Source of the DNA: Akkermansiaceae bacterium
GTDB lineage: Bacteria > Verrucomicrobiota > Verrucomicrobiia > Verrucomicrobiales > Akkermansiaceae
Assembly (NCBI GenBank): GCA_017798145.1
Contig: CP059069.1
Span: forward strand, 915,226-979,225
Direction: 5' to 3'
Length of the DNA stretch: 64,000 bases
The notes below the pieces were generated by a model, which saw nothing but the letters and a program-made list of their open reading frames with translations, made no database searches and had not been told where the DNA came from. This document shows positions 6,907-10,242 of this stretch, piece by piece. The position numbers and the translations under genes are program-made. Position 1 is the first letter of the stretch. Each line of letters starts with the position of its first letter.

Positions 6907-7911
6907 TCAGGCCGCCGCCCCGAGAGCCTCGGAAAGGGCTGCGAGCACCTTGGTCTTCGCGTCTTCCAGCGGCCCGGCCATGCGGATGCCTGCGGCGAGT
7001 GCATGGCCTCCGCCACCGAATTGCAAGGCGACTTCGCAGACATTCACTCCCTTGTCCTTGGAACGCATGGATACGCGGATCTTGCCGCCCTCCAGCTCCT
7101 CGAAGAACGCGGCGACACGCACGCCTTTCACCCCGCGTATCAGATCGATCAAACCCTCGCTGTCATCCGGCTTCAGATTCAGATCCTTCCGGACGGCGTC
7201 CCGCAGCTCCCAGTGGGCGAGTTTCCCGTCTTCGGAAATCTCCAGCGTATTGAGCAGGGTGCGCATCAGCTCGATCTTGCGGAAAGGGCTGTTGTCGTAG
7301 GTGTCTGCGTTGATTTTCCCGACGTCCAGGCCACGGCGTATCAGGTCTGCCGCCATCTCATAGGTGGCGGCCGTCGTCGAACCATACTGGAAGGAACCGG
7401 TATCCGTGGAGACGGCGACGTAGACCGAGTCCCTTGTCTCATCCGGCAGCGGGTATCCGAGCGACTTGATCAGGTCATAGACGATCTGGCCTGTGGCCGG
7501 GCTGCCCGCATCGATGACATTGACATCTCCGTAGGCGGGATTGGAAATGTGATGGTCTATGTTCAGCCAGAGCTTCGCCTTGGATGCGGCGTGCAGGGTG
7601 GCATCGCCGAGCCTCGGCTTGGTCGCCGTGTCGAGGGCGATCGCACAATCCACATCCAGCGGCTCTGCGGGCGGGCGGCTCACCTTTTCCGATCCCCGCA
7701 GGAACTCCAGGCTCTCCGGCACTCCGTCCTCGTTCACCAGGAAAACGGTTTTCCCCATCGCCATGAGAGAAAATCCCAGCGCGATCTGGGAACCGATCGC
7801 ATCCCCGTCCGGGCGCACATGGCTCATGATGATGAAGCTGCCATGCGCGGCGATCACCTCGCCCACTTCGGCAAAGCCTTTGGCTCTCGTTGTTTCATCG
7901 GAATGTTTCAT
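6907..7911 (-). CDS. nrnA: DHH/DHHA1 phosphoesterase, NrnA type (nanoRNase/pAp phosphatase)
   Basis: 334 residues from the ATG at 7911. The frame stays open 138 bases further upstream, but that stretch has no family character, so MKHSDETT is taken as the start. The motifs are SHVRPDGDAIGSQIALG (DHH motif I), LNIDHHISNP (the DHH motif), VSTDTGSF, and GGGGHALAAG in the C-terminal DHHA1 domain. NrnA-type enzymes degrade very short oligoribonucleotides and dephosphorylate 3'-phosphoadenosine 5'-phosphate using Mn2+. It is first in the nrnA-truB-ribF operon, so its promoter must lie in the intergenic region at 7912-8373. The exact substrate preference is inferred from family and context. Confidence 0.92.
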   Translation of the reverse strand: MKHSDETTRAKGFAEVGEVIAAHGSFIIMSHVRPDGDAIGSQIALGFSLMAMGKTVFLVNEDGVPESLEFLRGSEKVSRPPAEPLDVDCAIALDTATKPRLGDATLHAASKAKLWLNIDHHISNPAYGDVNVIDAGSPATGQIVYDLIKSLGYPLPDETRDSVYVAVSTDTGSFQYGSTTAATYEMAADLIRRGLDVGKINADTYDNSPFRKIELMRTLLNTLEISEDGKLAHWELRDAVRKDLNLKPDDSEGLIDLIRGVKGVRVAAFFEELEGGKIRVSMRSKDKGVNVCEVALQFGGGGHALAAGIRMAGPLEDAKTKVLAALSEALGAAA

Positions 7912-8373
7912 GGCAGGTAGGCCCGGCCAGCCGGGGGCGGATTCTCCCCGGCGGCTCATGCGAAGCAAGGACAAACGGAACCTCACCGCATCGGTTTGAG
8001 ATGGCCGGGCTGGTTCGGCTTGATCGCCCTCCTCCTTCACCTCATCCACAAGTTATCCACATACCTTCCGGGGTCGGGAAAACGCCGGAAACCGGGATTC
8101 CCATCCATCCCACAGGAAGCAAAGAACACGCATACAAACCATCCACCCGAATGTGGACAACTTGCGAACAGCTCAGGAAAACCCTTTCGAACCGTCACCA
8201 TCCTTTTATTTTCAATCCGTTACAGAGATATCAACATCTTATTCACATCTCAATGACTGCGAACAAGTCCTGAGTGAACATGGGTATGAATCGACAAACG
8301 GGATTCCCCAAAAGCGCAGGGAACAAGCGCCACGGGCAACTTTCCACAAGTTATCCACATCGCGGGAAAACCC
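7912..8373. other. Intergenic region with DnaA-box cluster (candidate origin or DnaA-binding locus)
   Basis: This 462-base stretch has no supported gene. It contains TTATCCACA at 8053-8061 and 8351-8359, TTATTCACA at 8239-8247, and one-mismatch boxes TCATCCACA at 8042-8050 and TTGTCCACA (minus strand) at 8152-8160. The two outer sites sit in an identical 18-base direct repeat (8045-8062 and 8343-8360), each preceded by a second partial box 11 bases away. Bases around 8200-8255 are clearly AT-rich against the GC-rich surroundings. These are the components expected of oriC (box clusters plus an unwinding element), though neither dnaA nor dnaN is in the window. It also has to contain the nrnA promoter. 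Confidence 0.6.
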
Positions 8374-10218
8374 TCAGCCCATGGCCTTTTCCATGAGGGA
8401 GTTCATGCGGCGTATGGTCTCGCGGGCGTCGTCGAGAAGCCCGGCGGAGATCAGGGCGTTGTCGAGCAACTGGGAGGCGACGAGCTTGGCGATCTCCGGG
8501 TTGCCCTCGCGGGTTTCGGCGAGTTTTTTGATGAGCGTGTGGCGGGGATTGATCTCCAGCTCCACCTTGACCTCGTCTTTGAAATTCTCGTCCATCGCCT
8601 TCATCATCTGGCGAACCTGCGGGGACATGCCGTCCTCGGGCACGAGTGCGATGACCGGGCTGTCCACCAAGCGCTTGCCGCTGGAGACCTTGGTCACACC
8701 GTCGCCTAGCTGCTCTTTCAGGAAATCGCAGAGCGCGGTTACCTGCTCCGCGGAAAGGGCATCGCCCTCCGCATCGAGATCCCCAAGCTCAGCCCCCGCA
8801 TGGCGGATCGACGCGAGCTTCTTGCCGTCGAATTCGCCGAGCGAATCGACCACATACTCGTCCACCGCATCGGTGAAATAGATCACCTCCAGCCCCCGCG
8901 CCTTGAACGCCTCCACATAGGGGCCGCTCTCGATCTGGTCGCGGTTCTGGCCGACGAGATAGTAGATCGTTTCCTGGCCGTCTTTCATGCGACCGGCGTA
9001 ATCCGTGAGGCTGCAAACTTCACCGGCATCGGTCATGGATGTCTCGAAGCGGAGCAGCTTCGCCAGCGCGTCCTTGTTCGCGTAATCGGTGGCGATGCCC
9101 TCCTTGAAGAAGCGCTCGAACTTCGCGTAGAACGCACGGTATTTCGCCGGATCGGACTCCGCTTCCTTCTCGAACATCCTGATGATCCGCTTGCTGATCA
9201 CGCCGTTGAGTTTCCTCACCAGGGCGCTGTCCTGCATGGTCTCGCGTGATATGTTGAGCGGCAGATCCGCGCTATCGACCACGCCTTTCATGAAGCGCAG
9301 CCATTCCGGCAGCAAGCCTTTCGGCTCGGGGTCGATGAGCACCTTCTTGCAGTAGAGGGCGACGCCGCCATCCACTTTCCCGAAGCCCATTTTCTCGGGG
9401 TTCTCGCCGGGCGCGAAAATCAGGGCGTTGATGGCGATCGGCGCATCGGCCGAGAAATGAAGGCGGTAGCTCGGCTCGTCGAAGCCCTTGCAGGCGAACT
9501 GGTAGAAGGCCTTGTATTCCTCATCGGTGACTTCCGATTTGTTTTTCAGCCATAGCGCCTCGACTTCGTTGATCCGCTTGCCGCCAAGCAGGATGGGGAA
9601 TCCGACAAAATTGCTGTATCGCTCGATGAGCCCCTTGACCTTGTATTCCTCGGTGAAATCCGTGCTCTTATCGTTGAGGTGCAGCACGATCTTCACCCCG
9701 CGCGGCAGCTCGCCGACCTCCTCGATCTCATAGCCGGTCTTGCCGTCGCTCTCCCAGCGCAGGTTCTGCGCTCCCGGCTTCCAGGAACGGCTGAACACCT
9801 CCACCTTGTCGGCGACCATGAAGGCCGAGTAGAACCCTACCCCAAACTGCCCGATCAGCCCCGCCGGACTACCGCCTGTTTCCTTGAGCTGCTCCAGGAA
9901 GGCCTTGGTGCCGGAATGGGCGATCGTCCCGAGGTTCTGCACGAGCTCGTCATGGGTCATGCCAACGCCGCGGTCGGTCAGGGTGATGGTCTTCGCCTCC
10001 TTGTCGAGCTGGAGCGTGATGCTCAGCTCCTCGCCGGCATCCTTGATGTCCTTTTCCGTCCCTTCGAGGTGCCGGACTTTCTCCATCGAGTCGGAGGCGT
10101 TGGAGATCAGCTCACGCAGGAAAATTTCCTTGTCAGTGTAAAGCGAGTGGACGACGAGATCGAGAAGCTTCTGGATCTCGGCCTGGAATACGTGTTTTTC
10201 GGTGGTCGGTGCGCTCAT
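8374..10218 (-). CDS. htpG: Molecular chaperone HtpG (Hsp90)
   Basis: 614 residues from the ATG at 10218; a TTG three codons upstream is an alternative start. The N-terminal GHKL ATPase domain has FLRELISNASDSMEKV, LTDRGVGMTHDEL and GQFGVGFYSAFMVADKV, with the ATP-binding Glu and Asn and the lid glycines intact. The middle domain (about 230-500) and the C-terminal dimerisation domain are full length. HtpG is a cytoplasmic ATP-dependent chaperone for folding and stress. It stands alone, preceded by its own candidate sigma-70-like promoter and followed by the DnaA-box region. Confidence 0.96.
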   Translation of the reverse strand: MSAPTTEKHVFQAEIQKLLDLVVHSLYTDKEIFLRELISNASDSMEKVRHLEGTEKDIKDAGEELSITLQLDKEAKTITLTDRGVGMTHDELVQNLGTIAHSGTKAFLEQLKETGGSPAGLIGQFGVGFYSAFMVADKVEVFSRSWKPGAQNLRWESDGKTGYEIEEVGELPRGVKIVLHLNDKSTDFTEEYKVKGLIERYSNFVGFPILLGGKRINEVEALWLKNKSEVTDEEYKAFYQFACKGFDEPSYRLHFSADAPIAINALIFAPGENPEKMGFGKVDGGVALYCKKVLIDPEPKGLLPEWLRFMKGVVDSADLPLNISRETMQDSALVRKLNGVISKRIIRMFEKEAESDPAKYRAFYAKFERFFKEGIATDYANKDALAKLLRFETSMTDAGEVCSLTDYAGRMKDGQETIYYLVGQNRDQIESGPYVEAFKARGLEVIYFTDAVDEYVVDSLGEFDGKKLASIRHAGAELGDLDAEGDALSAEQVTALCDFLKEQLGDGVTKVSSGKRLVDSPVIALVPEDGMSPQVRQMMKAMDENFKDEVKVELEINPRHTLIKKLAETREGNPEIAKLVASQLLDNALISAGLLDDARETIRRMNSLMEKAMG

Positions 10219-10242
10219 GTGATTCAAAGGGGAAATTTCGAG

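Follow-up and report, generated by a model that had tools for sequence, protein, structure and literature searches.

A DnaA-box cluster between nrnA and htpG

The window analysed here is a stretch of 64,000 nucleotides that corresponds to bases 915226-979225 of a single-contig 4.39-Mb Akkermansiaceae genome. The locus of interest lies at 0.923 Mb of that genome, in the non-coding DNA bounded by the stop of htpG (8374) and the probable start of nrnA (7911), the latter having been set from homologues (Table 1). An earlier note on this DNA had reported five boxes at this place, three of them perfect TTATNCACA matches and two with a single mismatch, and all five were found, the perfect ones all lying on the + strand. 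The outer boxes are embedded, as had also been described, in an identical 18-bp repeat, TCCACAAGTTATCCACAT, with exact copies at 8045-8062 and 8343-8360, and they enclose a stretch that is moderately AT-rich. A third copy of the repeat core, overlooked as such in the earlier note, occurs as the inverted sequence CAAGTTGTCCACA and is referred to here as box B, the two outer copies being boxes A and C. The one-mismatch box that overlaps box A is probably incidental. The spacer between B and C has a GC content of 46%, compared with 61% for the flanks.

Table 1 Features of the nrnA-htpG locus (positions in the window)
Feature	Position	Strand	Remarks
nrnA (DHH-family oligoribonuclease)	6907-7911	-	neighbour, outside the element; probable ATG at 7911
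One-mismatch box TCATCCACA	8042-8050	+	overlaps box A; outside the conserved geometry
Box A, CAAGTTATCCACAT	8049-8062	+	DnaA box TTATCCACA at 8053-8061; copy 1 of the 18-bp repeat
Box B, CAAGTTGTCCACA	8152-8164	-	one-mismatch DnaA box TTGTCCACA at 8152-8160; A-B distance 99 bp
AT-rich part of the B-C spacer	8195-8250		includes a single match resembling the IHF consensus (8229-8241)
Extra box TTATTCACA, between B and C	8239-8247	+	perfect box; comparable extra box in genome G181 at +198
Box C, CAAGTTATCCACAT	8347-8360	+	DnaA box TTATCCACA at 8351-8359; copy 2 of the 18-bp repeat; B-C distance 199 bp
htpG	8374-10227	-	neighbour, outside the element; stop at 8374

The whole 4.39-Mb genome contains only 14 perfect TTATNCACA boxes including the three at the locus; when 14 sites were placed at random, none of 200,000 placements brought three of them within 306 bp. 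A genome-wide search with CAAGTTATCCACA, allowing up to two mismatches, returned its three best matches (0, 0 and 1 mismatch) all at the locus. Twelve of the 14 perfect boxes of the genome lie on the + strand, which is a strand bias.

Recurrence of the three-box layout in related genomes

Perfect boxes in the same + - + layout were found in one genome of the same genus (G036) and in two of another genus (G048 and G019), and the extended box common to A(+), B(-) and C(+) across the elements is CAAGTTATTCACAA. The Akkermansiaceae were searched with a strict A-B pattern, GTTATYCACA-N75-105-TGTGRAYAAC, which allows A-B distances of 84-114. This pattern matched 49 of 260 genomes of the family, which represent 6 of 16 genera, and in each of them it occurs in one place; the reversed control pattern matched none of the 260. 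Outside the Akkermansiaceae, a sample of the order yielded a single genome with the pattern. Diverged copies will certainly have escaped so strict a pattern, and as most genomes of the family went unmatched, many of them may lack the element or carry an altered form of it.

Flanks and spacings were taken from 30 loci that were read individually, 28 from outside Akkermansia and two from Akkermansia. Box C was present within one mismatch in 26 of the 28 non-Akkermansia loci and was well supported, with its conserved extension, in 25; the one-mismatch search found no box C in G139 and G157, and the candidate TTATTAACA in G158 was not counted because it is at about chance level for a one-mismatch window search. 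The Akkermansia matches in G084 and G128 were rejected as copies of the element for want of a box C. The sequences between the boxes diverge from one element to the next and are mostly lower in GC than the flanks. No conserved IHF site was found in these spacers, the E. coli IHF consensus occurring in two of 26 elements, that of the locus included, with the proviso that this phylum may use other bending proteins. The locus is a member of an apparently undescribed element with three extended boxes, A(+), B(-) and C(+); among open-licence papers, we found none on a DnaA-box element or an oriC of the Akkermansiaceae.

Helical spacing of boxes A and B

Among the 47 non-Akkermansia matches, boxes A and B are 87-92, 98-102 or 107-112 bp apart, and never 93-97 or 103-106. 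The resulting classes, of approximately 88, 99 and 110 bp, are steps of one helical turn, and the best-fitting period is 10.9 bp. In simulation, none of 20,000 sets was as periodic (p < 5e-5 for all 47 matches; p ~5e-5 when only distinct A-B values were used), both figures ignoring kinship among the genomes. Individual genera contain members of all three of these classes. The B-C distance is usually 219-237 bp, with a shorter value at the locus and 244 in G131. Conserved spacing of boxes among relatives, by which datA- or DARS-like loci can be recognised, was found within the set of genomes that the strict pattern had matched. The spacing of the boxes, which recurs in other genera, matters more than their number. 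From the helical A-B spacing we infer that proteins bound to these boxes have to sit on one side of the DNA, as they would in a loop.

Gene context and chromosomal position

The genes beside the element change from genome to genome. Whereas the copy in the window is flanked by nrnA and htpG, those in G036 and G161 lie between FBPase and EmrE, that in G146 between a monomeric IDH and DUF6941, and some further copies next to isocitrate dehydrogenase and rho. No box cluster was found upstream of nrnA at any of 29 nrnA loci from the G-numbered genomes or 34 loci from named contigs; what looked like one near nrnA in L162, a close relative, lies inside a coding gene and was put down to chance. The check on conservation that had been proposed in the earlier note gave a divided answer, in that the boxes are conserved at the nrnA position in no relative read but recur with the same geometry elsewhere in related genomes. 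As the element recurs at other places and not at nrnA, a search confined to the same boxes at an unchanged position would have led to its mistaken dismissal. The nrnA loci of relatives retain truB and often ribF, and htpG was found beside nrnA in none of those read. Because the htpG-nrnA adjacency is absent from the nrnA loci of relatives that were read, the present copy sits at a synteny break, and as copies elsewhere lie between other genes, the element may mark rearrangement points.

These observations bear directly on the idea that the boxes form a DnaA-controlled promoter or operator of nrnA or htpG. DnaA is a known transcription factor (B. subtilis, PMC4447404) and the element is placed immediately upstream of nrnA, but the box geometry is kept while the neighbouring genes change, boxes are missing upstream of nrnA in the relatives read, and no sigma-70-like promoter was found in 7950-8420, which is a weak test; we therefore consider such a role unlikely. 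An RNA element was also looked for, and no Rfam match was obtained.

The distance of the element to the mnmG/origin region amounts to 0.38 of the chromosome here and to 0.25-0.48 across six complete genomes, and in all six complete genomes outside Akkermansia it lies mid-arm or further from the origin, at 50-95% of the ori-ter arm, the origin in G048, G019, G143 and G185 having been placed solely by mnmG with 2-4 parS sites. Such a position would suit a site for the organisation of the terminus or of the chromosome arm, in which the boxes only resemble DnaA boxes and are bound by another protein. Since, however, the boxes conform to the DnaA consensus and have the same core as the origins on the mnmG side, and since the position is scattered widely along the arm, this explanation appears to us quite improbable.

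Location of the replication origin

The earlier note had offered the cluster as a candidate oriC at an unusual place, and the presence of DnaA boxes together with an AT-rich stretch is in keeping with this. GC skew was sampled in 60 blocks of 20 kb, equivalent to 27% of the genome, and is noisy between 1.5 and 4.0 Mb. The sampled cumulative skew reaches its maximum near 0.43 Mb, and its minimum is broad, at about 2.5-3.15 Mb; a correction for coding strand left this picture unchanged, with the same 1.5-4.0 Mb region noisy. Between 838 and 1019 kb the skew is mostly negative on either side of the locus, with brief positive stretches but without a sustained change of sign at 0.923 Mb, so that the minimum, with its switch from negative to positive, that would be expected of an oriC lies elsewhere. 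The dnaA gene is found at 3.081 Mb and the sole 16S gene at 3.409 Mb, and hence neither marks the locus. Origins without an adjacent dnaA exist, and the distant dnaA can accordingly be reconciled with an origin beside nrnA and htpG.

Other sequence features point to a different region. Two parS-like sites, GTTCCACGTGGAAC, are located at mnmG (2.5967 and 2.5975 Mb), whereas no parS cluster lies near the locus, the other match closest to it (1.25 Mb) having 3 mismatches. Five further complete genomes have 2-4 sites of this kind at mnmG, and two Akkermansia genomes have a single one each. At a distance of 5 kb from mnmG, the non-coding stretch 2,603,836-2,604,031 contains, at 2,603,836-2,603,856, TTGTCCACA together with a trio-like repeat and GAAGATCTTATGAGGTCAAAA, followed by TTATCCACA at 2,604,023. 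The 21-mer at 2,603,836-2,603,856 is identical in G036, where it lies 6.4 kb from mnmG, and has one mismatch in G161; a search of eight other genomes did not find it. DnaA-trios are a mark of origins (PMC8287927), and no trio-like repeat was seen beside any box of the locus when the boxes were read by eye. On account of its box, trio-like repeat and AT-rich DNA, of mnmG and parS nearby and of its conservation in G036 and G161, we take the 2.60-Mb stretch to be the probable oriC of this genome. In G161 the origin-like 21-mer and the A-B-C element are on separate contigs, and the element of G036 is situated close to the skew maximum.

A DnaA-box cluster is likewise found in Akkermansia G038, 1.6 kb from mnmG at the skew switch, where TAGAAGAAGAAG and AT-rich DNA come after one of the boxes; it is probably an origin and lends the oriC reading some support, in that a cluster of DnaA boxes would serve as such within the family. 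Close-set boxes with TAGAAGAAGAAG near mnmG and a ribD-like gene were seen in G028, G038 and G047. The Akkermansiaceae oriC of the mnmG region and the A-B-C element draw on the same family of boxes (TTATYCACA, TTGTYCACA), but the former has trio-like repeats, AAGAAGAAG, AT-rich DNA beside the box and parS nearby, and the element has none of the three. Taking together the skew, the parS sites and the conserved origin-like sequence at 2.60 Mb, we rejected the locus as oriC and regard an origin at this place as very improbable.

Least probable of all is a second origin, remnant or active, of an integrated plasmid or phage: the boxes do resemble an initiator-binding array and the 18-bp direct repeat is iteron-like, but ordinary housekeeping genes flank the locus, the same geometry with diverged spacers is found across genera in one place per genome, and a search of 72,556 plasmids for similar DNA gave none, on which ground a plasmid source was rejected.

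Two other clusters of DnaA boxes came to light. In the genome of the window, the non-coding DNA at 1354109-1354153, outside oriC, carries TTGTTCACA, TTGTTCACA and TTATCCACA on one strand within 45 bp and is a candidate second DnaA site. In G019, four perfect TTATNCACA boxes occur within 80 bp at 4611826-4611905, apart from the A-B-C element of that genome and far from mnmG.

A putative distal DnaA control site

We consider it most probable, with a probability of roughly 0.6, that the locus is one instance of a conserved DnaA-binding element in non-coding DNA, which would regulate DnaA from afar and is not an origin. The datA- or DARS-like DnaA locus that the earlier note had named as the other possibility fits what was found, since an element of the same geometry is present in relatives, in other gene contexts and away from the mnmG/parS region. 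Judging from its sequence features, the element is probably a DnaA control site comparable to E. coli datA and DARS but with an architecture of its own. DnaA is the predicted binder on the evidence of the box sequence, and the genome encodes one DnaA protein, with an intact AAA+ domain and a putative DnaA-box-binding motif, GGRDHGTVIHA, recognised by inspection.

In E. coli, datA and DARS2 have an IHF site among or next to their boxes and DARS2 has Fis sites as well; datA stimulates the hydrolysis of DnaA-ATP and DARS the release of ADP. Given where oriC lies in E. coli, datA is nearer to it, and the DARS core is compact. The present element, in contrast, is far from oriC and has three core boxes, set 90-240 bp apart in + - + order and in a different phylum; no conserved IHF site accompanies them by the E. 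coli consensus, although the phylum may use other bending proteins. In common with datA, DARS1 and DARS2, the locus is a non-coding cluster of consensus DnaA boxes away from oriC, and spacing matters in datA too (PMC4585315). The E. coli sites alter the availability or nucleotide state of DnaA; datA comprises five boxes and an IHF site, DARS1 has three essential boxes, and both datA and DARS have conserved box spacing and relative position (PMC4585315). datA maps at 94.7 min (PMC5295017). The DnaA-box clusters (DBCs) of B. subtilis also lie outside the origin, and the removal of six is described as leading to early initiation (PMC5295017, citing Okumura 2012); they are several and, to go by the title cited there, oriC-proximal (PMC5295017), whereas the element, by its A-B pattern, occupies one distal place per genome and is helically spaced.

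As a mechanism, we propose that DnaA would occupy boxes A, B and C along a single face of the helix and that the DnaA-bound boxes would be joined into a loop, perhaps with an HU/IHF-like bending protein. The element would be copied in the second half of replication, and the DnaA complex formed on it would alter the amount of free or ATP-bound DnaA. Because of this late replication, DARS-like reactivation or late titration may be a better fit than a role like that of datA, which is exerted next to oriC. It is possible, and we put it forward tentatively, that this is an Akkermansiaceae-specific locus, in one place per genome, where a helically spaced three-box DnaA loop, kept distal to the origin despite changing neighbours, would reset DnaA late in replication.

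The characterisation of DnaA-regulating loci outside oriC has centred on E. coli and B. subtilis. If the proposed role is true, a type of control element familiar chiefly from E. coli would have evolved in another phylum, and a conserved, precisely spaced element in the Verrucomicrobiota would indicate a wider evolution of distal DnaA control sites.
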